Of a stretch of DNA of 64,000 bases, positions 47,546 to 64,000 are shown in pieces. The translations under genes were made by a program, and so were the position numbers. Numbering within the stretch: the first letter of the stretch is position 1; every line of letters begins with the position of its first letter. The notes below the pieces were generated by a model. It was given only the letters and a program-made list of their open reading frames with translations, was not told where the DNA came from and made no database searches. Source of the stretch: Falsiroseomonas algicola (lineage in GTDB: Bacteria; Pseudomonadota; Alphaproteobacteria; Acetobacterales; Acetobacteraceae); NCBI RefSeq assembly GCF_011040385.1, contig NZ_JAAIKB010000004.1, positions 186,001 to 250,000 of the forward strand, given 5' to 3'.

Positions 47546-48517
47546 ATGCGTGACGCAACAGGGATCGCCCGGCGCGGGCTGCTGGCCTTCGCGGCGACGG
47601 CCGGCATCGGTGCCGCCCGCGCCCAGAGCTTTCCCGACCGGCCGCTGCGCCTGGTCGTGGCCTATGCCGCCGGCGGCACCGGCGACCTGGTCGGCCGCCT
47701 CGTCGGTGAGGCGCTTGCCACGCGCCTCGGCGTGCCGGTGGTGGTGGAGAACCAGGGCGGCGCCGGCGGCGCCATCGCGGCGCGGGCCGTCAGCCGCGCG
47801 GCGCCGGACGGCCACACCATCCTGCTGGCGGGCAACGCCATCTTCGCCATCCTGCCGCACATGGCGAATGTCGGCTACGACCCTGTCGCGGGCTTCACGC
47901 CCATCGCCAACATCAGCGAATCCCAGCGCCTGCTGGCGGTGCGGAACACGCTGCCGGTGACGACGCTCGCGGCGCTGGTCGCGTACGGGAAGGCCAATCC
48001 CGGCAAGCTCAACTACGGCTCCTCCGGCATCGGCTCCACCCTGCATGTGATGACGGAGATGTTCCGGCGGGAAGCGGGGTTCGAGGCCGTGCACATCCCC
48101 TTCCGCGGCTCCGCGCCCGGCGTGCAGGCGATGCTGGGCGGCGATGTGGACTTCATGATCGACACCGTCGTGATCCAGCATGTGCAGCAGGGCCGGCTGC
48201 GCGGCCTGGCCGCCGTCGGCGATCGCCGCCTCCCGCAATTCCCGGACATCCCGACCCTGGCGGAGCAGGGATACCCCAATGTCCGCACCTCCGGCTGGCA
48301 GGCGCTGATGGGGCCACCGGGCATGAACCCCTCCACCGTGGCGCTGCTCGCCGGCCATGTGGAGGCGATGCTGCGCGACGCCGCCTTCGTGGAGCGCCTG
48401 GGCCGCATCGGCGTGGTGCCGAGCTACCGCTCGCCATCCCAGCTGGCGGACGACCTCGCCGAGGATACGCGCCAGTTCGGCGCGCTGATCCGCAGCGCCG
48501 GCATCACCGCGGAATGA
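47546..48517 (+). CDS. Bug/TctC-type binding protein
   Basis: 323 residues. Signal ARRGLLAFAATAGIGAARAQ with RR. Bug signature FPDRPLRLVVAYAAGGTGDLVGRL, VVENQGGAGGAIAAR and HIPFRGSAPGVQAMLGGD. It is the fourth Bug gene of the operon, directly after the third, and coupled by ATGA to the MmgE/PrpD gene. GGGCAGGAGAC precedes the ATG. Confidence 0.92.
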   Translation: MRDATGIARRGLLAFAATAGIGAARAQSFPDRPLRLVVAYAAGGTGDLVGRLVGEALATRLGVPVVVENQGGAGGAIAARAVSRAAPDGHTILLAGNAIFAILPHMANVGYDPVAGFTPIANISESQRLLAVRNTLPVTTLAALVAYGKANPGKLNYGSSGIGSTLHVMTEMFRREAGFEAVHIPFRGSAPGVQAMLGGDVDFMIDTVVIQHVQQGRLRGLAAVGDRRLPQFPDIPTLAEQGYPNVRTSGWQALMGPPGMNPSTVALLAGHVEAMLRDAAFVERLGRIGVVPSYRSPSQLADDLAEDTRQFGALIRSAGITAE

Positions 48518-49887
48518 GCGGCCTCAACGCAAGCGCCGCGTCCTGGGCCGCCGGTGTCACGCTGGAGCGCGTGCCGACCGAGGTGATCGAAAGCACGAAG
48601 CTCCGCATCCTCGACCTCATCGGCGTCATGCTGGCGGCGCGACCGCTGCCGCTGGTGGCGGCGGCCCGGCAGGCGGCGCTGTCCATCGATGGCGGCGGCG
48701 GCGCGCGCATCCTGGGCGACACGCAGGATGTCTCCCCCATGGCGGCCGCCTTCGTGAACGGCGTGATGACGGCGGTGCTGGAGTTCGATGACACCCACAT
48801 CGAAAGCTTCATCCACCCGACCGCGCCCGTCGTCTCCGTCGCCTTCGCGGAAGTCACGCGCCGCCGCGTCTCCGGCGCCGACCTCATCCGGGCCGTGCTG
48901 GTTGGCAGCGAGCTGACCTGCCGGCTTGGTCGCATCACGCCCGTTCGCCTGCACACGCTGGGCTTCCACCCCACCGCCGTCTTCGGCGTCTTCGGCGGCG
49001 TCTATGCGCTGGCGGCGCTGCGCGGGCACGGCGCGGGGCTGATCGCGGACGCCATCGGCGCCGCGGGCAGCCTCTCCGCCGGGCTGAACGCCTCCTTCGA
49101 GGATGGCAGCTCCACCAAGATGATGCATGTCGGCACGGCGGCGACCGGCGCGCTGCGGGCTCTGGCGCTGGCGGAGGCCGGCATCAGCGGCCCTCTGCCC
49201 GTCTTCGATGGCCGCTTCGGCTGGTTCCGCAGCCATGTGCAGGGCCGCGACGACCTCCGCTTCGATGCGCTCGGCGATGGCCTTGGCGAGGTGTGGGAAG
49301 TGCTGAACATCGCCGCCAAGGTGCATCCCTGCGCCTTCACCATGATGCCGCATATCGAATGCGCCATCGTGCTGCGCGACCGCCACGCCATCCGGCCGGA
49401 GGAGATCACCGGCGTCACCTGCCGGATCGGCAAGCGGTCCTTCGCCACGGTCTGCGAACCCGTCGCCGACAAGCGCCGCCCCTCCACCACCTGGCATGGC
49501 CGCATCAGCCTGCAGCACACGGTGGCGGAGGCGCTGGTCCGCGGCCGCATGGACAAGGACGCCTATGCGGAGGCCGCGCTGCACGACCCCGGCATCAACC
49601 GCATCGCCGACCTCGTGGAGTACGAGGACGATCCCGACACCACGGCAACGCGCTCCGGCGGCATGGTCACGGTGCACCTCCGCGATGGGCGCGTGGTAAG
49701 CCATCGGATCGACGACATGCGGGGCACCCGCGCCAACCCGATGACGGCTGCCGATGTCATCCGGAAATTCCGCGCGAATGTGGATGGCGTGCTGACCAGT
49801 GCGCAGGCGGACAGCGCCATCGACGCGGTGCTGCGCCTGGAAACACTGGAGGACGTCGCGCCGCTACTCGACGGCCTGGCCGGATGA
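48514..49887 (+). CDS. MmgE/PrpD-family protein
   Basis: 457 residues of the 2-methylcitrate dehydratase family. Motifs: ESTKLRILDLIGVMLAA near 30-46, VNGVMTAVLEFDDTHIES near 82-99 (active-site Asp-Asp-Thr-His), GFHPTAVFGVFGG near 150-162, and KVHPCAFTMMPHIE near 268-281. Family members dehydrate citrate-like tricarboxylates or act on related hydroxy acids such as itaconate or iminodisuccinate. As the last operon gene it could dehydrate the acid produced by upstream steps. Its end overlaps the convergent iclR gene by 24 bases. Confidence 0.88.
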   Translation: MSGLNASAASWAAGVTLERVPTEVIESTKLRILDLIGVMLAARPLPLVAAARQAALSIDGGGGARILGDTQDVSPMAAAFVNGVMTAVLEFDDTHIESFIHPTAPVVSVAFAEVTRRRVSGADLIRAVLVGSELTCRLGRITPVRLHTLGFHPTAVFGVFGGVYALAALRGHGAGLIADAIGAAGSLSAGLNASFEDGSSTKMMHVGTAATGALRALALAEAGISGPLPVFDGRFGWFRSHVQGRDDLRFDALGDGLGEVWEVLNIAAKVHPCAFTMMPHIECAIVLRDRHAIRPEEITGVTCRIGKRSFATVCEPVADKRRPSTTWHGRISLQHTVAEALVRGRMDKDAYAEAALHDPGINRIADLVEYEDDPDTTATRSGGMVTVHLRDGRVVSHRIDDMRGTRANPMTAADVIRKFRANVDGVLTSAQADSAIDAVLRLETLEDVAPLLDGLAG

Positions 49888-53067: not shown

Positions 53068-54216
53068 TCATCCCCGCTGCGGTCCCGGCGGCGTGGATGA
53101 TGCAGCGGCGAAGCGGCCGATGTGGAAGGGCTCGATCGGCACGCTGGTGCGGCCGGTCGCGATCAGCTCCGCCATCGTCGCGCCGACGCCGGGGCCGAGC
53201 TGGAAGCCGTGGCCGCAGAAGCCGAAGGCGTAGAACAGGCCGGGCGTCACGCCGCTCGGCCCCATCACCGGGATGTCGTCGCGCAGATAGCCCTCCACGC
53301 CGCTCCAGGTGCGGATGACGCGCAGCTGTGCCATGGCAGGCAGCAGCCGCCGAAGATGCGGCATCTGGGCCATGGTGTTCAGCGGATTCAGCGTCGCGCG
53401 CTTCGTGTCCAGCGACGCGGCATCGCGCCGGCCGCCGCCGAAGACGATGTTGCCGCGCTGCACCTGGCGCAGATAGACGCCCTCCTCCGTGACATCGGTA
53501 TGGATGCCCATCACCTCCGGGATGCGATACGGGGCGGGCTCCGTCACCCCCATCTGGGGACCGGCCGGGGTCAGGGGCACATCCTCCCCCAGCGCCGCTG
53601 AAAGCCGCTGGCCCCAGGCGCCCGCCGAGACCTGCACCATCGGCGCGCGAAAGGTCCCGGCGCGCGTCTCCACGACGAAATCCTCCGCGCCGCGGGCGAT
53701 GCCGACCACCTCGGCATGCTCCACCACCACGGCGCCTTCGCGCCGCGCGGCGCGCGCAAAGGCCGGCGCCGCGAGCCGCGGATTGGCATGGCCATCCAGC
53801 GGCGAGTAGGAGGCCATGACCGCCTCCGGCGACAGGTAGGGGAAGCGGTCGCGCAGTGCATTGCGGCTGATCAACTCGAGCTTCAGCCCATAGGGCGCGC
53901 AGTCCCGCGCGTACTGCTCCATCCGGCCGATCTCGGCGTCGCGGAAGCAGACGCGCAGATGGCCGCTGGCCAGGAACTCCACATCCTCCCCGATCAGCTC
54001 CGGCACGCGGCCCCAGAGGTCGCGCGAGAGGTTGGCCAGCGGCAGCTGGGGCAGGAAGCGGCCCTGGCGGCGGATATTGCCGAAGCTGGCGACGGTGGCC
54101 GCCTGCCCGACGAGGTCGCGCTCCAGCAGGATCACGGAGAGGCCGCGGCGGCGCAGGAAGAAGGCGGTGGCACTGCCCATGAGGCCGCCGCCGACGATGA
54201 TGACGTCAGCCTTCAT
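53068..54216 (-). CDS. FAD-dependent amine/amino-acid oxidoreductase, catalytic subunit (HcnC/OoxB-like)
   Basis: 382 residues of the DAO family. FAD motif GGGLMG at 9-14, ASFGNIRRQGR near 43-53, and a C-terminal FCGHGFQLGPGVG. With the two genes upstream it matches the three-part HcnABC and opine-oxidase layout, in which this subunit oxidises a secondary or primary amine (glycine, octopine, nopaline or a similar compound). The ATG overlaps the end of the previous gene by 11 bases. The stop faces the gene-free gap. Confidence 0.87.
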   Translation of the reverse strand: MKADVIIVGGGLMGSATAFFLRRRGLSVILLERDLVGQAATVASFGNIRRQGRFLPQLPLANLSRDLWGRVPELIGEDVEFLASGHLRVCFRDAEIGRMEQYARDCAPYGLKLELISRNALRDRFPYLSPEAVMASYSPLDGHANPRLAAPAFARAARREGAVVVEHAEVVGIARGAEDFVVETRAGTFRAPMVQVSAGAWGQRLSAALGEDVPLTPAGPQMGVTEPAPYRIPEVMGIHTDVTEEGVYLRQVQRGNIVFGGGRRDAASLDTKRATLNPLNTMAQMPHLRRLLPAMAQLRVIRTWSGVEGYLRDDIPVMGPSGVTPGLFYAFGFCGHGFQLGPGVGATMAELIATGRTSVPIEPFHIGRFAAASSTPPGPQRG

Positions 54217-55582
54217 CGGGGCCGAGCTCCGCAGTCAGCGGCAGGGGCTTGATCGGCGCGGCGCCGCGCAGCTGCCCCACCTCCTCCACCGGAACGCCGC
54301 GGGCAGCGGCGATGACCTCCGCGGCCGCCAGGCCGCAGATCCGTCCCTGGCAGCGCCCCATGCCGACGCGGCCCAGCGACTTGGCCCGGTTCATCTCGGG
54401 CGCGCCCGTCTCGGCGACAGTGCGACGGATGGCGCCGGCGGTGATGGCCTCGCAGCGGCAGATGATCGTCTCGTTCGGCAGCATCGCGGCCAGGTGGCCG
54501 GGCCAGGGGAAGCCGTTCTCCAACCCCTGGCGGAAGCGCGACATCGGCCGCAGCGCCGCGCGCAGGCGAGAGAACTCCTCCTCCGGCACGGCATGGCCGA
54601 GGTCCCGCAGCGCGGCACAGGCGGCGAGCCGCCCCGCCAGCTCCGCCGCATCGGCGCCGCGCACCACGGCGCCATCGCCAGCCAGGTAGACAAGCGGGAC
54701 GCTGCTGCGCCCATCCGCATCCGTCTCCGGCAGCCACTGGCGGGCCACGGCGTCGAAGCCGAAGCGCGCCTTCGCCAGGTCCGCCAGCTGCGTCTCCGAT
54801 CGCAGGCCATAGCCAAGCCCGACGGCGTCCGCTTCCACCCGCCGCTCCCGCCCCGCACGGTCGCTCACGACCACGCCGGCGACGCGGCCATGCCCCTCGA
54901 TCCGCAGCGGCGTGACGCCGGTGAGCACCGGAATGCCGGCGCGCCGCAGGCCCGCCAGATAGCGCAGCCCCTGCGCCAGCACCGCCGGCCGCGCGGCCAG
55001 CGCGGCGGCGGCCAGCACGCGCCGCCGGGACGGGCTGGTGTCCAGCACGGCGGCCACCGTGGCGCCGGCCTTCACGTATTGCCAGGCCACGAGGTAGAGC
55101 AGCGGCCCCGTGCCCATGAACACCACGCGCGACCCGATCGCGCAGGCCTGCGCCTTCAGCGCGATCTGCGCCGCGCCCAGGCTGTAGACGCCGGGCAGGG
55201 TCCAGCCGGGCAGCGGCATGATCCGGTCCGTCGCGCCGGAGCAGAGGATCAGCGCGGCATAGGGCAGGCGCTCCAGCCGGTCCCCGCGCTGCGTCAGCAC
55301 CGCGCCATCGGCGATGCCCCAGACCAGCGTGCCGGGGCGGTAGTCCAGCCGCGGGGCCAGCGCATCGGCGGCCGCGTGCAGCGCCACCGCCTTGGCTGCC
55401 TCCGATCCGTAGAGCGCCGAGGCCGGCCGCGTGAAACCGGCGGGCTGGCGGCGATAGATCTGGCCGCCGCTGCGCTCATTCTCGTCGATCAGCACCGGCC
55501 GCAGCCCGGCCTCCACGAGCCGCGCCGCCGCGCGGATGCCCGCCGGCCCGGCGCCGATGACGATCACGGCAGGGCTGGCCAC
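54206..55582 (-). CDS. pyridine nucleotide-disulfide-type subunit (HcnB/OoxA-like) with C-terminal [2Fe-2S] domain
   Basis: 458 residues from a GTG preceded by GGGAGG. FAD/NAD Rossmann motif GAGPAG at 10-15, SGGQIYRRQ, a second dinucleotide motif FMGTGPLLYL and YLAGDGA. The C-terminus carries CRCEAI and GRCQGRICG, the four cysteines of a BFD-like [2Fe-2S] domain. It passes electrons from the DAO subunit. It overlaps both neighbours, so the three subunits are translated together. Confidence 0.87.
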   Translation of the reverse strand: MASPAVIVIGAGPAGIRAAARLVEAGLRPVLIDENERSGGQIYRRQPAGFTRPASALYGSEAAKAVALHAAADALAPRLDYRPGTLVWGIADGAVLTQRGDRLERLPYAALILCSGATDRIMPLPGWTLPGVYSLGAAQIALKAQACAIGSRVVFMGTGPLLYLVAWQYVKAGATVAAVLDTSPSRRRVLAAAALAARPAVLAQGLRYLAGLRRAGIPVLTGVTPLRIEGHGRVAGVVVSDRAGRERRVEADAVGLGYGLRSETQLADLAKARFGFDAVARQWLPETDADGRSSVPLVYLAGDGAVVRGADAAELAGRLAACAALRDLGHAVPEEEFSRLRAALRPMSRFRQGLENGFPWPGHLAAMLPNETIICRCEAITAGAIRRTVAETGAPEMNRAKSLGRVGMGRCQGRICGLAAAEVIAAARGVPVEEVGQLRGAAPIKPLPLTAELGPDEG

Positions 55583-55884
55583 GGAACCTCCCGCGTCACG
55601 ATGCGGAGCGATTCGATGACGGTGGTGCTGCAGGCGCGCAGCCTGCCGCCTTGCTCCGTCCAGACCCAGCAATCCTGGCAGGCGCCCATCATGCAGAAGC
55701 CGGCCCGCGCGCCGTCGCCGAATTCGCTGTGCCGCAGCACCAGGCCCTGGGTGAGCAGCGCCACCATCAGCGTGTCGCCTTCCAGCGCCTCGATGGGCTG
55801 GCCGTCGACCCATAGCCGAACAGGTCGCCGCCCGGTTTCCGCCAATCGGCGGAACAGCCCCGCCTCGTGCCCGCTTGCGCTCAT
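55564..55884 (-). CDS. small [2Fe-2S] ferredoxin subunit (HcnA-like)
   Basis: 106 residues from the ATG at 55884, with GGAGG nine bases upstream. A single plant-type ferredoxin domain with ligands C64, C69, C72 and C85 (C-x4-C-x2-C-x12-C). This is the small subunit of the three-part dehydrogenase. It is the first gene of the operon, divergent from a LysR gene across a 93-bp region with a LysR-type box. Confidence 0.88.
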   Translation of the reverse strand: MSASGHEAGLFRRLAETGRRPVRLWVDGQPIEALEGDTLMVALLTQGLVLRHSEFGDGARAGFCMMGACQDCWVWTEQGGRLRACSTTVIESLRIVTREVPWPALP

Positions 55885-55941
55885 GAAGCCCAGCCTCCGC
55901 CCGCGGGTCGGGGCTGTCCAATCGGCATCCGCCTTGCTTGC

Positions 55942-55956
55942 ATAAGCCCGACCTAT
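55942..55956. promoter_or_regulatory. LysR-type box ATAAG-N5-CCTAT
   Basis: ATAAGCCCGACCTAT, one mismatch from ATAAG-N5-CTTAT, with the T-N11-A spacing of LysR operators. It lies 57 bases upstream of the ferredoxin gene start and 21 upstream of the lysR start. Confidence 0.55.
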
Positions 55957-55977
55957 GGCGGAGCCTGTGAGCGGCCC

Positions 55978-56877
55978 ATGAACGCACGGCAGATCGAAGT
56001 CTTTCGCACCATCATGCGCTGCGGCACGCTGACGGCCGCCGCCCAGGCGCTCAATGTCTCCCAGCCCGCGCTGAGCCAGCTTCTGCTGCATGCCGAGGAC
56101 CAGCTGGGCTTCCGCCTGTTCCAGCGCCTGCACGGCCGGCTGACGCCGACGCCGGAGGCCAATCTGCTGTTCCCGGAAGCCGAGCGCCTGCACCGGGACC
56201 TGGAAGGCTTCCGCCGCTTCGCGGCCGATCTCCGCCACGGCAAGCAGGGGGCGCTACGGCTGGCGGCCTCCGCCCCCACGGCCCTGTCCTTCGTGCCGCA
56301 GGCACTGGCCGATTTCCGCATCGCCTGCCCGGGTGTGCGCGTGATCTCCTACATCGTCTCCATGGCCGTGCTGACCACCATGCTGGACAATGGCGAGGCC
56401 GATCTCGGCGTCGCGCTGAACGACACGCCGCAGCCGCTGATCCAGACCGAGCGGATCGGCCGCAGCGAGGTGCTCTGCCTGCTGCCGCAGGGCCACCGCC
56501 TGGCCGCCCAGCCCAGCATCGGCCCCGCCGATCTGGAGGGAGAGACGCTGATCTCCTATCGCCCGGACAGCCTGCAGGGCGTGATGCTGGCGGAGGCCTT
56601 CGCGGAGGCGGGCACGCGCTACCTGCCGCAGGTGGAAATCGACGTCTCCATCGCCGCCATCGGCTTCGTGCAGCAGGGGCTGGGCGTGGCGCTGGTGGAT
56701 GCGCTGGTGCCCTGGAGCGGCTTCCAGGACCTGGTGACGCGGCGCTTCCTGCCGCAGCAGACCCTGCCCATCTCCCTGCTGTTCAGCACGCGGCGGCCGC
56801 TTTCCACCACCCAGAATGTGCTGCGCCGGAAGCTGCGGGAGGCCGGCAGCCGCTACACGCCCCACCTGCCCTCATAA
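55978..56877 (+). CDS. LysR-family transcriptional regulator (opine/amino-acid regulator type)
   Basis: 299 residues. N-terminal HTH: RQIEVFRTIMRCGTLTAAAQALNVSQPALSQLLLHAE-type (residues 4-40), followed by the periplasmic-binding-like effector domain. It resembles OccR/NocR and related regulators by position beside an opine-oxidase-like operon. Matching ATAAG-N5-CTTAT boxes lie in its divergent promoter, directly over its stop codon upstream of hyuA, and upstream of the last binding-protein gene, so it may control all three units. Confidence 0.88.
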   Translation: MNARQIEVFRTIMRCGTLTAAAQALNVSQPALSQLLLHAEDQLGFRLFQRLHGRLTPTPEANLLFPEAERLHRDLEGFRRFAADLRHGKQGALRLAASAPTALSFVPQALADFRIACPGVRVISYIVSMAVLTTMLDNGEADLGVALNDTPQPLIQTERIGRSEVLCLLPQGHRLAAQPSIGPADLEGETLISYRPDSLQGVMLAEAFAEAGTRYLPQVEIDVSIAAIGFVQQGLGVALVDALVPWSGFQDLVTRRFLPQQTLPISLLFSTRRPLSTTQNVLRRKLREAGSRYTPHLPS

Positions 56878-56888
56878 GGGCGGCTTAT
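56874..56888. promoter_or_regulatory. LysR-type box ATAAG-N5-CTTAT upstream of hyuA
   Basis: ATAAGGGCGGCTTAT: perfect five-base arms with T-N11-A spacing. It overlaps the lysR stop codon and lies 75 bases upstream of the HyuA-like gene. Confidence 0.6.
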
Positions 56889-56963
56889 CGCGGACCCTGC
56901 ACTCGGTCTTGGACGCCTGGCCGCCGCCGCCCGACACTGCGCCCGCTTCGACGGGGATACGGC

Positions 56964-59006
56964 ATGGGCTGGCGCATCGGCGTGGATATCGGCGGCACCT
57001 TCATCGATTTCTGCGCGCTGGATGAGAAGACCCGGCAGATGCACACGCTGAAGGTCCTCACCACGCCGGACGAGCCGGGGCGCGAGGTGATGGAAGGCAT
57101 CGCGCTGCTGCAGCAGCGCCACGGCATGGACCCCGCGGAGGTGACCAGCTTCGTCCATGGCACCACCGTCGGCATCAATACCGTCATCCAGCGCAAGGGC
57201 GCCGACCTCGCGCTGATCACCAATGCCGGCTTCGAGGATGTGATCGAACTGGCGCGGCTGCGCATGCCGGAGATGTACAGCCTGTTCTGCGCGCGGCCGG
57301 AGCAGCTGATCCCCCGTGACCGCATCTTCGGCGTCGCCGGCCGCATCCTGGCCGATGGCAGCGAGGCAGAGGCGCTGGACGAGCAGGCCGTGGCGAACGC
57401 GCTGGAGCTGGCGCGCGCACGCGGCGCGCGGGGCGTCATCATCGCCTTCCTGCATGCCTATCGGAACCAGGCGCAGGAACAGGCGGCCAAGGCCGTCGTG
57501 CAGCGTCTGGCGCCGGACCTCTTCGTCTTCTGCGCCGCAGAGATCTGGCCGGTGATCCGCGAATACGAACGCACGACGACAGCAATCCTCAACGGCTACG
57601 TCTTCCCGCGCGTCGATGGCTACCTGCATTCGCTGGAACAGGCGCTGCGCGGCCGCGGCGTGACGGCGCCGCCGATGATCACCAAGTCCAATGGCGGGAT
57701 GATGAACATCGCCATGGGGCGCAGCTCCTGCGTCTCCATGCTGCTGTCGGGCACCGCCTCCGGCGTCATGGGCGCCTCCTTCCTGACGCGGCAGGCCGGC
57801 GTGCCGAATGCGCTGACGCTCGACATCGGCGGCACCAGCGCCGATGTCGCGCTGATCATCGAGGGCCGCGCGCAGTTCGGCACCGGCGAGCTGATCGGCG
57901 AATTCCCGCTCTACGTCCCCAGCGTCTCCGTCACCTCGATCGGCGATGGCGGCGGGTCCATCGCCACGGTGGATGGCTTCGGCATGCTGAAGGTGGGGCC
58001 GGAGAGCGCGGGCTCCGTCCCAGGCCCCGCCTGCTACGGGCGCGGCGGCGACCGCGCGACCATCACCGATGCCATGGCCGTCTGCGGCTTCCTGGGCCAT
58101 GCGCCGCTCGCCTACCGATCCGTCACCATGGAGCGCGGCAAGGCGGAGGCGGTCGTGGGCGCACTGGCCCGAAAGCTCGGCCGCGGGCTGCATGAGACGG
58201 CGGAGGCCATCATCATGGTCTCCATCTCCTCCATGTTCGCGGAGGTGAACAAGCTCGTGGCGCGCTACGGCGTCGATCTCGGCGATTTCACCCTGGTGCC
58301 CTTCGGCGGCGCGGGCCCGATGATGGGCTGCCTGCTGGCGCGGGAACTCGGCATCCGCCGCGTCATGGTGCCGCGACGCCCTGGTGTCGTCAGCGCCCTC
58401 GGCGGCCTGGTGGCCGAGGTCAAGAACGACTTCATCCGCACCATGTTCATCGAGCTGCGGGCGGAGGGGCTGGCGGCACTGCAGGCCGCCCTGGCAGCGC
58501 TGCGCGCGGAGGCCGAGCGCTGGCTGCGCCCGGACCAGAATTTCGCGGGCGTCGCCGCGCTGCAGGTCTCGGCGGACATGCGCTACCGCGGGCAATCCTT
58601 CGAGATCGAGACGGTGCTGGAGGAGGCCTGGATCGAGGGCGGCGACCTCGACGCCATCCGCGCCGCCTTCCATGCCCGGCACACCGCCATCTACGCCTTC
58701 GCGGACGAAGCCGCGCCCGTGCAACTCGTCAATCTCCGCCTCGTCATCGCCGGCGCGACGGAGCCGCCCGATTTCGCGGTGCAGGAAAAGGTCGCCGGCA
58801 CGCCGCGACCCGAACGGCTGGTCGATGTCTGGCACGACGGCGCGCTGCACCGCATGCCGCTCTTCCTGCGGGAGAACCTGCGGCACGGCCATGAATTCTC
58901 GGGCCCCGCCGTGGTGGCGCAGGAGGACAGCACGGTCTGCATCCCCGCGGGCTATGCCGGCACCGTCGATGCGCATGGCAATTTGCACCTGGCGGCGGAG
59001 GGCTGA
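56964..59006 (+). CDS. hyuA: hydantoinase/oxoprolinase family protein, subunit A
   Basis: 680 residues of the ATP-dependent hydantoinase A family. N-terminal actin-like site VDIGGTFIDFCALD near 7-20, FVHGTTVGINTVIQRKGA near 64-81, TNAGFEDV, and the second domain DIGGTSADVALI near 288-299. The full set is compatible with ATP use. Such enzymes open hydantoins, N-methylhydantoin, 5-oxoproline or acetone-type substrates together with subunit B. The B gene follows after five bases. Confidence 0.9.
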   Translation: MGWRIGVDIGGTFIDFCALDEKTRQMHTLKVLTTPDEPGREVMEGIALLQQRHGMDPAEVTSFVHGTTVGINTVIQRKGADLALITNAGFEDVIELARLRMPEMYSLFCARPEQLIPRDRIFGVAGRILADGSEAEALDEQAVANALELARARGARGVIIAFLHAYRNQAQEQAAKAVVQRLAPDLFVFCAAEIWPVIREYERTTTAILNGYVFPRVDGYLHSLEQALRGRGVTAPPMITKSNGGMMNIAMGRSSCVSMLLSGTASGVMGASFLTRQAGVPNALTLDIGGTSADVALIIEGRAQFGTGELIGEFPLYVPSVSVTSIGDGGGSIATVDGFGMLKVGPESAGSVPGPACYGRGGDRATITDAMAVCGFLGHAPLAYRSVTMERGKAEAVVGALARKLGRGLHETAEAIIMVSISSMFAEVNKLVARYGVDLGDFTLVPFGGAGPMMGCLLARELGIRRVMVPRRPGVVSALGGLVAEVKNDFIRTMFIELRAEGLAALQAALAALRAEAERWLRPDQNFAGVAALQVSADMRYRGQSFEIETVLEEAWIEGGDLDAIRAAFHARHTAIYAFADEAAPVQLVNLRLVIAGATEPPDFAVQEKVAGTPRPERLVDVWHDGALHRMPLFLRENLRHGHEFSGPAVVAQEDSTVCIPAGYAGTVDAHGNLHLAAEG

Positions 59007-59011
59007 GGACG

Positions 59012-60988
59012 ATGGACAAGGTCACGCTGCAGGTCTTCGCCAACCATGCCCGCGCGGCGGCGGAGAACATGGCCTACACGCTGTACCGCACGGCGCATTC
59101 CACCTTCGTCAAGGAGACGGAGGATTTCACCATCCAGATCCTCGACCCCGCGGGCCAGGTCAGCGCCGTGCCGATGGATCTCGGCGCCACCTGGTATGTC
59201 GGGCTGAACTACGGCCCCGCCATCGGCATGATCCCGGACTACAGGCCGGGCGACATCGGCGCCACCAACGATCCCTATAGCGGCTTCCTGGCGACGCATG
59301 CGCCGGACCTGCACATGTGGAAGCCGATCTTCTGGGAGGATCAGATCGTCGCCTTCGCCAGCGGCCATATCCACAACACCGATATGGGCGGCGCGGTCCC
59401 GGCGAGCCTGTCGCGCACCCTGACGGAGATCCACCAGGAAGGCGTGCGCATCCCGCCGCTCAAGATGTATCGCGAAGGCGCGCTGAACGAGGAAGCGCTG
59501 CGCATCATGCTCCTCAACGTCCGCAAGCCGGAGCAGAATCTCGGCGACCTCAAGGCCTTCGTCGGCGCGCTCAATACCGGGGAGCGCAAGGTGCTCGCCA
59601 TGGTGAAGAAGTTCGGGCTGGAGGGTTTCCGCGCCGGCCAGGCCGGGCTGCTCGATTACGCCGAGCACCAGGCGCGGGAGATCCTGCGATCCATCCCCGA
59701 CGGCGACTACTTCTTCTGCGACTACACGGATGAGGATTCGGCCGGCGGCAATCCCTGCCGGCTGGCGCTGACGCTGCGGATCCAGGGTGACAGCGCGACG
59801 CTGGACTTCACCGGCACCGACCCGCAGCTGACCTCGGCGCTGAACGTGCCGACGGGCGGCGCGGCGCGGCACACGCTGCTGCTGGTCGGCGTCTACTACG
59901 TGCTCTACACGCTGAACCCGCAGATCCTGCTGAATGCGGGGCTGGTGCGTCCCTTCACCTGCATCGCGCCGGAAGGCACGGTGCTGAACCCGACCTTCCC
60001 GGCCGCGGTCGGCATGCGGTCGCTCACCTGCGCGCGGCTGCGCTCCCTCATCTTCGGTGCCTTCAGCCTGGCGATCCCGGACCGCATGCCGGCCGCGCCC
60101 GCCGGCACCAGTTCCATCATGAATGTCCGCACCGTGGATAATCGGACGCGGGAGACGGTGCTGGCGGCGATCAATCCCGTGGTCGGCGGCGCCGGCGGCA
60201 TGCCGCATCGGGATGGCACCAACGGATCGGGCGCCGATGGTGCCTATCTCAAGAACACGCCGATCGAGATCACGGAGACCGAGGTCCCGATCCAGTTCCT
60301 GCGCTACGGGCTGATGCCGGATTCCGGCGGCGCCGGGCAGCATCGCGGCGGCCTCGCCTCCGTGCTGGAATTCAAGGTCTTCTCGCCCAATACCCACATC
60401 ACCGCCCGCAACCGCGACCGCTGCCGCTTCCGCCCCTGGGGCACGCTGGGCGGCCATAGCGGCAAGCCCTCCGACTTCCTGCTCAACCCCGGCACGGATC
60501 GCGAGAAGAAGCTGGGCAATACCGATATCACCAGCATGGACCCGGGCGATGTGCTGCATATTCATTCGCCCGGCGGCGGCGGCCGTGGCAGCCCGCTGAA
60601 GCGCGACGTGGCGCTGGTGCTGCAGGATGTGCGGCGCGGCTACGTCTCCGTGAATGCCGCGGCCGCCGACTACGGCGTCATCATCCGAGACGGCGCCGTC
60701 GACGAGGCCGCGACAGCGGCGCGGCGCGCGGAGCTGCGCGCCGGCGAGACGGAGCGCCATTTCTTCTTCGGCCCGGAACGCGACGCCTTCGAGCGGGTCT
60801 GGAGCCGCGATGTCTACGCCGCCATGACAACGGTCATCGCCAGCCTGCCCGTGCATTGGCGTTTCTTCCTGAAGTCCCGGCTGTTCGAGATGGTGCCGGC
60901 CATCGCGCAGGAGACGCGGGCCTGCCCGGTGACGGAGGCCGTCTCGCGCCTGCGCCTTCGCTACCCGGAGATGTTCACCGCGGGCTGA
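59012..60988 (+). CDS. hyuB: hydantoinase/oxoprolinase family protein, subunit B
   Basis: 658 residues of the HyuB family. Motifs: FANHARAAAENMAYTLYRTAHSTFVKE near 10-36, GDIGATNDPYSGF near 83-95, HIHNTDMGG near 118-126, and SPGGGGRGSP near 522-531. It is longer than many N-methylhydantoinase B proteins, with a C-terminal extension (ETERHFFFGPERDAFERVW). It forms the catalytic complex with HyuA. The downstream aldo/keto reductase is 48 bases away. Confidence 0.9.
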   Translation: MDKVTLQVFANHARAAAENMAYTLYRTAHSTFVKETEDFTIQILDPAGQVSAVPMDLGATWYVGLNYGPAIGMIPDYRPGDIGATNDPYSGFLATHAPDLHMWKPIFWEDQIVAFASGHIHNTDMGGAVPASLSRTLTEIHQEGVRIPPLKMYREGALNEEALRIMLLNVRKPEQNLGDLKAFVGALNTGERKVLAMVKKFGLEGFRAGQAGLLDYAEHQAREILRSIPDGDYFFCDYTDEDSAGGNPCRLALTLRIQGDSATLDFTGTDPQLTSALNVPTGGAARHTLLLVGVYYVLYTLNPQILLNAGLVRPFTCIAPEGTVLNPTFPAAVGMRSLTCARLRSLIFGAFSLAIPDRMPAAPAGTSSIMNVRTVDNRTRETVLAAINPVVGGAGGMPHRDGTNGSGADGAYLKNTPIEITETEVPIQFLRYGLMPDSGGAGQHRGGLASVLEFKVFSPNTHITARNRDRCRFRPWGTLGGHSGKPSDFLLNPGTDREKKLGNTDITSMDPGDVLHIHSPGGGGRGSPLKRDVALVLQDVRRGYVSVNAAAADYGVIIRDGAVDEAATAARRAELRAGETERHFFFGPERDAFERVWSRDVYAAMTTVIASLPVHWRFFLKSRLFEMVPAIAQETRACPVTEAVSRLRLRYPEMFTAG

Positions 60989-61036
60989 TCGCGGGGTAGA
61001 GATCGGCGCGGCCACGACGCGTGGAAAGGTCTTCGC

Positions 61037-62002
61037 ATGAGATACGTCCAGCTCGGCCGCAGTGGCCTGACCGTCTCCGCCATCTGCCTCGGCGGCAATT
61101 CCTGGGGGGCGGCGGGCCGCCGCGGCTGGGCGCCGATCGACCAGGAAGGCGCCCGTCCCTTCTTCCGCGCGGCGCTCGATGCCGGCATCACCTTCTTCGA
61201 CACCGCGAATGTCTACAATGCCGGTGAGAGCGAGCGGATCATAGGCGCCACCCTGCTGAAGGAGGTGCCGCGTGAAGAGGTCGTGATCTCCACCAAGGTC
61301 GGCATTCCGACCGGCCAGAAGCCGAATGCCGGCGGCGTCGGGCGCAAGCATCTGATGGCCGCGGTGGAGGCCTCGCTGAAGCGCCTCGATACGGACCATA
61401 TCGACCTGCTGCAGCTGCATCGCCTCGATACGGTGACGCCGGTTGAGGAGACGATGGCGGCGCTGAACGACCTCGTCCGCGCCGGCAAGGTGCTCTACAT
61501 CGGCGGCTCCACCATGCCGGCCTGGCGCTTCGCGCAGATGTGCACCATGGCATCGGAGCGCGGCTGGGCGCGGCCCGTGGCGATGCAGAACCTCTACAAC
61601 CTGGTGCAGCGGGAGGAGGAGCGCGAGATGATCCCGCTCTGCCTCGACCAGGGCGTCGGCCTGGTGCCCTATTCGCCGCTCGCCCGCGGCTTCCTCGGCG
61701 GCAACCGCACGCGGGAAGGCGCGGCGACCCAGCGGGCGCGCACCGACCATCTCGCGGAAGGCCTGTACCGGGAGAGCGACTTCGCAGTGCTGGATGCCGT
61801 GCTGGAGATCGCGCGGGCGCGCGGCGTGAAGCCGATGCAGGTGTCGCTGGCCTGGCTGATGGGCAAGGCCGTGATGGCCGCGCCCGTCGTGGGTGTCAGC
61901 GACCCCGCCCAGATCGCCGATGCGGCCGCCGCCACGGCGCTGCGCCTGACGGCGGAGGAGGTGGCGCGGCTGGAAGCGCCCTACGCCAGCCGCACCCTCT
62001 GA
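61037..62002 (+). CDS. aldo/keto reductase
   Basis: 321 residues. The catalytic tetrad is complete: D55, Y60, K87 and H128 (FFDTANVYN, ISTKVG, LLQLHR). The NADPH-binding C-terminal region includes YSPLARGFLGG and SLAWLM. Soluble, without a signal. It likely reduces an aldehyde or ketone formed from the hydantoinase or amine-dehydrogenase steps. Its stop is 4 bases from the convergent amidohydrolase stop. Confidence 0.9.
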   Translation: MRYVQLGRSGLTVSAICLGGNSWGAAGRRGWAPIDQEGARPFFRAALDAGITFFDTANVYNAGESERIIGATLLKEVPREEVVISTKVGIPTGQKPNAGGVGRKHLMAAVEASLKRLDTDHIDLLQLHRLDTVTPVEETMAALNDLVRAGKVLYIGGSTMPAWRFAQMCTMASERGWARPVAMQNLYNLVQREEEREMIPLCLDQGVGLVPYSPLARGFLGGNRTREGAATQRARTDHLAEGLYRESDFAVLDAVLEIARARGVKPMQVSLAWLMGKAVMAAPVVGVSDPAQIADAAAATALRLTAEEVARLEAPYASRTL

Positions 62003-62006
62003 GGCC

Positions 62007-63026
62007 CTATCGGGACATGCCGCCGAGGAAGCTCTGCAGGTAGCGGCCCAGCGAAGGGCTGAGATAGCCGCCCTCCTGCACCAGAAGCGTGGGGCAGCCG
62101 AGCGCGGCGATCCTGGCCGCCGCCTCCGCGAAGCCGGCCTCGGTGATGCGGAAGGTCGCCACGGGGTCCTGCTCCGCGGCATCGAGGCCGAGGGCCACGA
62201 CGAGCGCGCCCGGCGCGAAGCTGCGGAGACGAGACAGCGCGCCGTCGATGGCCGCAAGCCAGGGCGCATCGGTCGTGCCGCGCTGCAGCGGCTGGTTGTG
62301 GTTGCACCCGAGCGCGGCGGCGCCGCCGACCTCATCGGCATGACCGGCATAGAGCGGCGCGCCGGCATTGGGATCGACATGCACGGAACAGGTCATCACA
62401 TCCGCGCGGTCCCAGAAGATCGATTGCGTGCCGTTGCCGTGGTGCACGTCGATATCGAGGATGCCGACGCGGCCGAAGCGGTTGGTGAGACGTTGCGCGG
62501 CGATTGCGGTGTTGTTCAGGTAGCAGCCGCCGCTCATCAGGTCGGCATAGGCATGGTGGCCGGGCGGGCGGCACATGGCATAGATGGGCGCCTCGGCGGC
62601 GGTCAGGCGCTCGGCGCCGTGGATCGCCACCTGCGCGCTGGCCAGGACCGAATTCCAGGTCTCGGCGGCGATCGGGCAGGTCGTGGAATTGCTGTACCAG
62701 CCGAGCTCACCGATCAGGTCGGTGGGCCTGCGATGCATCCGGTGCGTGGGATGCACGCTCGGCACCGCGACGGGGCCGAAATCCGGCCGCTGCATCCAGC
62801 GCGCATGCACGCCCTTCAGGAAGTCGACATAGGCGGGATCGTGCACGGCGGTGATCGCCTCCAGCACCCCGATCGGCGCCTGCACCACCGCATGGCCCGC
62901 GCGCATCACCGCATCCAGGAAGACCCGGTAGCGCTCGGCGCGGTCGAAATGCGGGATGAACTTGCCGGTGCGGAACACGCTGTCGACGTCATGCCTGGCC
63001 TGGTCGGGGTGATGGATGACGAGCAT
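62007..63026 (-). CDS. histone deacetylase-family amidohydrolase (acetylpolyamine amidohydrolase-like)
   Basis: 339 residues of the arginase/deacetylase fold. Charge-relay H157-H158 (PPGHHAY), zinc ligands D193 and H195 (DIDVHHGNGT) and D282 (GLDAAEQDP), and the catalytic Tyr Y321 (EGGY). This matches bacterial acetylpolyamine amidohydrolases, which free polyamines or other amines from acetyl groups. It fits a locus that handles amines and amides. The divergent region upstream carries a LysR-type box. Confidence 0.89.
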   Translation of the reverse strand: MLVIHHPDQARHDVDSVFRTGKFIPHFDRAERYRVFLDAVMRAGHAVVQAPIGVLEAITAVHDPAYVDFLKGVHARWMQRPDFGPVAVPSVHPTHRMHRRPTDLIGELGWYSNSTTCPIAAETWNSVLASAQVAIHGAERLTAAEAPIYAMCRPPGHHAYADLMSGGCYLNNTAIAAQRLTNRFGRVGILDIDVHHGNGTQSIFWDRADVMTCSVHVDPNAGAPLYAGHADEVGGAAALGCNHNQPLQRGTTDAPWLAAIDGALSRLRSFAPGALVVALGLDAAEQDPVATFRITEAGFAEAAARIAALGCPTLLVQEGGYLSPSLGRYLQSFLGGMSR

Positions 63027-63118
63027 CTGGCGCTTCCCTGATGGACGATCATGCCAGGTGATACGCCGCGGGCCGCCGCCTGCCCACCGCTTCGGCCAGG
63101 CCGATCGCGGTCTTCGGT

Positions 63119-63133
63119 ATAAGACACCCTTAT
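63119..63133. promoter_or_regulatory. LysR-type box ATAAG-N5-CTTAT upstream of the last binding protein
   Basis: ATAAGACACCCTTAT: perfect arms with T-N11-A spacing, 92 bases upstream of the deacetylase-like start and 168 upstream of the binding-protein ATG. It is the third copy of this box in the locus. Confidence 0.6.
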
Positions 63134-63301
63134 GAAGGCCGGCGCGGATTGTCTTGGCATCTCGCGCGCCTGCGGATGAGGATCGCCTCCGGAGCGCAGG
63201 ATACGCGGCAGTGCCCTCGCGAATGTCGGTGGTTCCCGACAGGTCCCCGCACGGAAGAAGCGGAACCCGGACGGCCAGCCCGATACAGGATGGAGTAGGC
63301 C

Positions 63302-64000
63302 ATGGGGTTCACGACGAAATCCCGCTTGCCGCTGCGTGCAGCCATCGCCCTGCTTGGACTGGGCCTTGGCTTCCCGGCGGCACAAGCGACCGATCTGCGC
63401 ATCGGCACCACCGGCACGCCCACGCTCGATCCGCATTTCATGCTGATCGACACCAACATCGCCTACAACCAGCACATCTACGGCGCGCTGATCGACCAGG
63501 ATGCGCGCGGCCAACTGCACCCCGACCTGGCGCTGTCCTGGGCGCCAGAGGGCGACAATGCCTGGCGCTTCAGGCTTCGCCCGGGCGTCACCTTCCATGA
63601 CGGCACGCCCTTCACCGCCGATGACGTGGTCTTCAGCCTGCAGCGCGTGCCGAACATCCCGAACAACCCGGCACCCTATACCGGCGCGCTGCTCGGCGTG
63701 ACGGAGGTTCGCAAGGTCGATGACCTGACCGTCGATCTCGTGACCGACGGCTTCGTGCCGATGCTGCCCAACCAGATCGCGAAGCTGTCGATCCTCTCCC
63801 GCCACGCGGCGGAAGGCCGGGGCACGGAGGAGTTCAACCAGGGGCGCGCCGCCATCGGAACCGGCCCCTATCGCCTGGTGCGACTGCAGGGCCGGGACCG
63901 GCTGCAGCTGCAGCGCAACGACAGCTATTGGGGCGAGAAGCCCGCCTGGAATGCGGTGGAATTCCGCGTGCTGCCGAACGACGCCGCGCGCAGCGCCGGG
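63302..64000 (+). CDS. ABC transporter substrate-binding protein, family 5 (3' truncated by window)
   Basis: First 233 codons, open to the window end. ATG at 63302 with GGAG upstream. Sec signal LPLRAAIALLGLGLGFPAAQA. Family 5 features: LRIGTTGTPTLDPHFML near 33-49, FRLRPGVTFHDGTPFTADDVVFSLQRV near 90-116, and IGTGPYRLV. It resembles the protein at 34284 (TPFTAEDIAFS, IGTGPYR). A LysR-type box upstream suggests coregulation with the dehydrogenase and hydantoinase operons. Permease and ATPase genes probably follow outside the window. Confidence 0.88.
   Translation, partial: MGFTTKSRLPLRAAIALLGLGLGFPAAQATDLRIGTTGTPTLDPHFMLIDTNIAYNQHIYGALIDQDARGQLHPDLALSWAPEGDNAWRFRLRPGVTFHDGTPFTADDVVFSLQRVPNIPNNPAPYTGALLGVTEVRKVDDLTVDLVTDGFVPMLPNQIAKLSILSRHAAEGRGTEEFNQGRAAIGTGPYRLVRLQGRDRLQLQRNDSYWGEKPAWNAVEFRVLPNDAARSAG

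Follow-up and report, generated by a model that had tools for sequence, protein, structure and literature searches.

Genes and Boxes of the Locus

We analyzed a 64,000-nucleotide (nt) stretch of DNA from Falsiroseomonas algicola (contig NZ_JAAIKB010000004.1, positions 186,001 to 250,000; this whole stretch is referred to as the window), in which a LysR-type regulator gene is accompanied by three copies of a palindromic box, ATAAG-N5-CTTAT. The boxes are very probably high-affinity recognition operators of the LysR encoded between them, through which its targets would be switched together. Domains were assigned by a Pfam profile scan of the open reading frames (ORFs) in the window. The lysR gene (55978..56877, + strand) encodes a protein of 299 amino acids with HTH_1 and LysR_substrate domains, both above the curated cut-offs; it has an OccR-like sensor domain and the recognition helix SQPALSQ, with glutamine at residue 34 (Gln34). 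On the - strand lie the genes of a dehydrogenase with a [2Fe-2S] subunit (Fer2_4; 55579..55884), an FAD/NAD-type subunit (Pyr_redox_2) that also carries a BFD [2Fe-2S] domain (Fer2_BFD; 54206..55582), and a DAO-family FAD subunit (53068..54216). The locus therefore has the Fer2_4 small subunit, FAD/BFD subunit and DAO subunit that together we take to be the mark of the three-subunit opine/amine dehydrogenase family. One published study lends some support to the trio as such a mark (PMC6733357). No solved relative of the FAD/NAD-type subunit was found at 1e-8.

On the + strand, lysR is followed by hyuA (hydantoinase/oxoprolinase A, Hydantoinase_A; 56964..59006), hyuB (hydantoinase/oxoprolinase B, Hydantoinase_B; 59012..60988) and, 49 bases after hyuB, an aldo/keto reductase gene (61037..62002, +). 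In the near relative L059, tblastn found no counterpart of the reductase, and hyuB is directly followed by the deacetylase gene. This acetylpolyamine-amidohydrolase-type deacetylase (62007..63026, -) has a histone-deacetylase fold, and its closest solved relatives are acetylpolyamine amidohydrolases. A family-5 solute-binding protein gene (63302..64000, +) runs on to 64873 in the genome; past the window come a second family-5 binding protein, RidA (assigned by an 80% match to RidA of genome G006) and a DegT aminotransferase. This gene set extends from window position 63302 to L004:8011, and a scan of ten ORFs from there on found no permease or ATPase. The gene at 48514..49887 we take to be of the mmgE/prpD type, a label that does not come from the profile scan.

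At up to one mismatch, the box occurs at exactly three places in the window. Box 1 (55942..55956, -) carries the single mismatch, reads ATAGG-N5-CTTAT towards the dehydrogenase and lies between dehydrogenase and lysR. Box 2 (56874..56888, +; ATAAGGGCGGCTTAT) is perfect, holds the lysR stop codon and is the predicted hyuA operator. Box 3 (63119..63133, +; ATAAGACACCCTTAT), also perfect, lies between the deacetylase and binding-protein genes. A sequence-only reading had placed two perfect boxes and one single-mismatch box at these positions, and had described all of them as intergenic or at a gene edge, with T-N11-A spacing; the motif count returns exactly these three, the spacing is present in each, boxes 1 and 3 are intergenic and box 2 runs over the lysR stop. 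In 100 shuffles of the window the mean was 0.05 boxes at up to one mismatch, and no shuffle had three. In the whole genome (6,560,827 bases in 90 contigs), the exact form is found at two places, both within the window, and the reversed pattern used as the control at none. The looser form ATAA-N7-TTAT has three places in the genome, two of them in the window (control 1).

Promoter Geometry and Conservation

Each box is followed at a fixed distance by promoter-like elements. Exactly 20 nt after box 1 stands a -35-like TTGGAC (55916..55921, -), and 18 nt after it a -10-like GAGGCT (55892..55897, -). Box 2 has TTGGAC at the same 20 nt (56909..56914, +), with GACACT (56933..56938, +) as the -10-like element of the hyuA promoter. 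On the binding-protein side of box 3, TTGGCA is again exactly 20 nt away (63154..63159, +) and is followed by the -10-like GAGGAT (63178..63183, +), the same in three genomes. A generic sigma-70 scan returned no promoter at its thresholds, these -35/-10 pairs being weaker. The box centre lies ∼64 base pairs (bp) before the predicted transcription start, which would fit LysR proteins, whose recognition site is classically near -65. The dehydrogenase mRNA may be leaderless, since the ATG at 55884 coincides with the predicted +1. This ATG, in frame with the [2Fe-2S] subunit, is 65 bp from the centre of box 1 (55884-55949), a placement that the window shares with five orthologue loci (L052, L054, L055, L057, and L059).

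LysR orthologues were sought by protein similarity only. The 28 tabulated loci are the window, 12 loci from genome contigs, 13 plasmid records, and L136 and L137, which were found through the composite pattern of box and -35 described below; LysR identity ranges from 47 to 100%, and the loci span at least five families of Alphaproteobacteria. The genome-contig search gave 15 LysR loci, 12 of them at 49–93% identity. In each of the 12, a box-like site is centred 16–52 bp ahead of lysR, with one mismatch in 10 of them and two mismatches in L050 and L051; lysR itself is followed by a perfect box and then by hyuA-hyuB. All three dehydrogenase subunits are divergent from lysR in nine, and L058 (Mesorhizobium) has a split arrangement. 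The three remoter LysR loci (L060–L062, 26–36%) are without the box pair, L060 having one one-mismatch box. The plasmid records were 15 taken from the 25 listed among 2389 matched. Thirteen, from Azospirillum, Paracoccus, Roseobacteraceae, Mesorhizobium and Rhizobiaceae, have LysR identities of 47–54% and were all counted; two at 45% (L159 and L162) carry an ATAAC variant and were left out of the counts. The hyuA regions of the two Azospirillum records are L160 and L161, whose divergent sites were picked with a -35 filter.

The pattern nT.GAC (mostly TTGGAC or TTTGAC) stands exactly 20 nt past the box in 28/28 hyuA promoters and 28/28 divergent promoters (56/56). Where sites were chosen without regard to a -35, it was at offset 20 in 26/26 hyuA and 24/24 divergent promoters, window included. 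At the other offsets from 8 to 32, the 28 loci gave three matches, all at offset 14. Roughly estimated from 3 Mb of random sequence, a one-mismatch box has a frequency of 0.00015 per 150 bp, and a -35 at a given place one of 0.0024. In the hyuA promoters the T at +57, the last base of the -10-like element, is kept in 86%, which puts the start near +64. The divergent target is the dehydrogenase in 26/28 loci and tctC in 2/28. The hyuA box is perfect in 26/28 (ATAGG in L151 and L152), and 22/28 divergent boxes have ATAGG as their distal half. The single mismatch noted earlier in box 1 is present but, being conserved across the divergent promoters, is not decay; ATAGG is presumably a tuned, weaker half-site.

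The sites also stay with their targets when the regulator gene does not. The boxes of six rhizobial loci (L153–L158) are separated by ∼6 kb from lysR, which is at the far end, and those of two Azospirillum loci by 23–24 kb; both boxes are still found between hyuA and the DAO-type dehydrogenase gene. Where lysR adjoins hyuA, its stop codon is commonly part of the operator. The TAA of lysR forms positions 2–4 of box 2, as it does in 12 of 13 loci including the window (exception L048), and the same overlap is seen in four of the five plasmid loci with lysR beside hyuA (exception L148). Of 59 genomes, seven have a close LysR (63–100%); their perfect boxes number 12 against 4 for the control, with seven in front of hyuA, three in front of the deacetylase and two at another operon of G006. 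The family's 28 other genomes hold nine perfect boxes. In genomes that have the cluster, further perfect boxes lie outside it at G060 C132:32081-32095 and L158:4368.

Because boxes recur at a fixed distance from the same gene promoters in many related bacteria, they are very probably LysR sites. The earlier proposal of a LysR regulon thus gains support from comparison, with boxes 1 and 2 recurring at fixed spacing in 28 loci, and as judged from these alignments it is a real, conserved regulon of known, canonical design, in which the mechanism would be ordinary and the precision is useful.

Box 3 and the Deacetylase

A close orthologue of the deacetylase is present in three of the 59 genomes (100, 87, and 83%); in the remaining genomes no match over most of the length exceeded 48%, and one fragment of 100 residues reached 53%. 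In all three, a perfect box precedes the deacetylase gene with TTGG at +20. This TTGG faces the binding protein in the window and in G013/L059, and RidA-DegT in G006. On the deacetylase side, all three genomes have a promoter-like pair, TGGGCA-N17-TATCAC (63058..63086, - in the window), at +40/+63; its distance from box 3 exceeds the usual spacing of the other promoters by 12 bp, about one helical turn.

One alternative is that boxes 1 and 2 are true operators and box 3 is a chance occurrence or is separately used, with the deacetylase and binding proteins outside the regulon. Box 3 is found in only three genomes, two of them close relatives, its controller in G006 is ambiguous, and its deacetylase side is without TTGGAC at 20 nt. 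In the three-way intergenic alignment, however, the box arms, the TTGG at +20 and the -10-like GGATGAGGAT block are identical while the stretches between them vary, and a chance perfect box is rare (two in 6.56 Mb, both here). We consider this alternative unlikely. G006 was rejected as independent proof that this LysR controls box 3, a second LysR with the same element being ∼10 kb away.

The joint control of dehydrogenase, hydantoinase, deacetylase and transporter proposed from the sequence alone is thus backed by conserved geometry for the dehydrogenase, hyuA and the binding-protein side, but it is less certain for the deacetylase because its promoter-like pair stands 12 bp further out. Box 3 appears to serve mainly the binding-protein/RidA/aminotransferase side, the case for the deacetylase being weaker and less certain.

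Use of the Element by Other LysR Proteins

The composite ATAAGN5CTTATN20TTGG was found at 42 sites in 33 of 397 family genomes (control 2); the scan misses the cluster genomes G007 and G014, which have GTGGAC. At L121, an unrelated LysR gene is followed by the element and then by an ORF reading like biotin carboxylase; here too the regulator ORF ends in the box (ORF end 1504, box start 1501). G006 has a copy 76% identical to the L121 regulator, with two boxes on an operon matching the Pfam families for biotin carrier, biotin carboxylase, CT_A_B and LamB_YcsF, to which we presumptively apply the names accBC/pxp. By position, this unrelated LysR lineage stands over a biotin-carboxylase/LamB_YcsF-type operon in L121, L102/L103 (G006 C11), and G018 C179, with a second box ∼4.6–4.7 kb on. 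Other LysR genes are near the composite in L116, L118, L129, L131, and L132, in L118 before a long membrane-protein-like ORF. In L141–L143 a Gln34 LysR gene is accompanied by ATAAG-N20-TTGG oriented away from the gene; the element in L142 faces an ORF resembling a major facilitator superfamily transporter.

Some or all boxes of the window might be bound by a different LysR-type regulator that is encoded at another place and prefers the same box, the local LysR being one reader among others. The second LysR of G006, 25% identical to the local one and also Gln34, has two perfect boxes with the 20-nt spacing on its accBC/pxp-like operon, ∼10 kb from the deacetylase box, and in other genomes ATAAG boxes are found beside LysR-type genes from three unrelated groups. 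Yet neither the genome of the window nor G013 has a close copy of this second LysR (best matches 32 and 34%), both have box 3, and the only perfect boxes of both lie at this cluster. The 32 other LysR-like matches in the window's own genome qualify this argument. We regard binding by such a regulator as very unlikely to be the better account. The element itself, as its distribution indicates, is a class of LysR operator plus promoter common to several LysR-type proteins. The local LysR is the likeliest reader in this genome, but the element is not private to it, as the unrelated LysR of G006 has the same one.

We also compared recognition-helix residue 34 with the box sequence. Gln34 is found in 28/28 orthologues (SQPALSQ or TQPALSQ). 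The Lys34 relatives L016, L017, and L030 have ATAAC...GTTAT, and L018 has it as a one-mismatch box; L033 (Lys34) has the GTTAT half only, L032 (Arg34) has ATAAC, and L060 (Gln34) has a mixed box. L159 and L162 (Lys34) have the ATAAC...GTTAT box away from lysR, in L159 before hyuA. This box, ATAACCGGAGGTTAT, is at L159:4843-4857 and L162:1843-1857 on Sinorhizobium fredii plasmids, 20 nt before TTGG; the hyuA that it precedes in L159 is a different one. Such a box is missing upstream of several other Lys34 relatives. ATAAG boxes are found beside Gln34 regulators from three unrelated groups (L075; L121/L135; L141–L143). That Gln34 alone dictates ATAAG was rejected, since L116, L118, L129, L131, and L132 (Acetobacteraceae) have the ATAAG composite with Ala or Met at residue 34, the pairing being putative. 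The pattern ATAAC-N5-GTTAT-N20-TTGG had three sites in 200 genomes (control 4); one of them adjoins a Lys34 LysR gene, and at the other two no LysR was found. It is possible, though doubtful, that a rigid module (ATAAG-N5-CTTAT, 20 nt, TTGGAC, 18 nt, -10) serves at least two unrelated LysR lineages, both able to put their own stop codon in the operator, that residue 34 sets the fifth base pair (Gln34 for ATAAG, Lys34 for ATAAC), and that the regulon is an OccR-like opine-type amine/lactam system in free-living Alphaproteobacteria. Such a residue-to-base rule, for a family of regulators that is very large, could be tested directly.

Observations Against Joint Control

Several observations weigh against control of these targets by the local LysR through its boxes. 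The one-mismatch box is found at six places genome-wide, three of them in the window, vs. eight for the control, and its count is below the control in 12/12 genomes holding the cluster. Rarity thus stands for the exact form, whereas for the one-mismatch form the evidence is clustering and not a genome-wide excess. Twenty of the 30 composite sites examined by tblastn are elsewhere than the LysR-hyuA cluster, which accounts for 10; 12 sites, one of them box 3 of the window, are outside that set. In L049 and L056 (2/12), tctC takes the place of the dehydrogenase. Orthologue loci also have boxes without a -35 at 20 nt, at L158:4368 (perfect) and L150:7557 (one mismatch). A further one-mismatch box stands at L052:5687. 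Methylobacterium nodulans L163, with a 55% identical hyuA, has no box, and no lysR is annotated beside it. The lack of TTGGAC at 20 nt on the deacetylase side of box 3 belongs here too. Lastly, HyuAB falls short of the NCBIfam equivalog models of caprolactamase CapAB, with 460.7 and 266.2 bits, less than half of the cut-off of 1000 each.

That the palindromes are incidental AT-rich repeats, or unselected DNA shared by ancestry, might draw on the close relationship of the window to L059 and on one-mismatch boxes being no commoner than the control, but this is already contradicted by the conservation data, in which box and -35 are (nearly) invariant over 28 loci while most surrounding intergenic columns vary, and in which the promoters keep their sites even when lysR is at a distance.

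Proposed Mechanism and Relation to Known Systems

In the LysR regulon that we favor, a LysR dimer would occupy the box in any state, with the box centre at about -64, ahead of a weak promoter. With inducer bound, a second dimer would contact the DNA across the -35 region and bring in polymerase, so that the dehydrogenase, hyuAB and the binding-protein/RidA/aminotransferase operon, and probably the deacetylase, would be turned on together. Box 1 is ∼29 bp before the lysR start codon, so the regulator probably represses its own gene in this lineage. HyuAB would open a ring and the dehydrogenase would oxidise an amine. Neighbouring genes in Azospirillum and Rhodobacterales include semialdehyde and tartrate dehydrogenases and an ATP-binding cassette transporter, to which Azospirillum adds an aminotransferase and an ArgE-type deacetylase; these fit catabolism of nitrogenous carbon without naming the compound.

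Our literature searches on this regulon found no description of it. Its predicted operators are defined to the base in at least five alphaproteobacterial families. A single sensor would tie ring-opening hydantoinase/oxoprolinase-type enzymes to a three-subunit amine dehydrogenase and to transport proteins, a link that narrows the search for the substrate.

A sensor profile built from 12 orthologues was compared with solved sensor domains. OccR, the octopine catabolism regulator of Agrobacterium, was the best match (E 4.5e-20 vs. 3.3e-13 for the next, nearly seven orders of magnitude), which speaks for homology only. The two are alike in being LysR-type and in predicted operator position, the strongest OccR site being reported at about -64 (PMC5002191). 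They differ in that sequence identity is low and that the targets here are hyuAB, the three-subunit dehydrogenase and binding proteins, with boxes at three promoters. The same publication describes the target of E. coli CynR as 15-bp inverted repeats, ATAA-n7-TTAT, with an ATAAG half-site (PMC5002191); CynR shares these features with the present boxes, whereas its targets are cynTSX. A similar gene set is that of the succinamopine Ti plasmid pTiEU6, where one region is reported to hold a Nox-like dehydrogenase, LysR, mmgE and HyuA/B, the last proposed to open lactam opines (PMC6733357). The likeness in dehydrogenase, HyuA/B, LysR and mmgE is drawn from that published description and not from sequence, and unlike pTiEU6 the window locus has no plant-tumour context. 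By analogy with the OccR-like sensor, the site parallels to OccR and CynR, and the pTiEU6 gene set, the regulon likely serves to break down an opine-like secondary amine together with its lactam.

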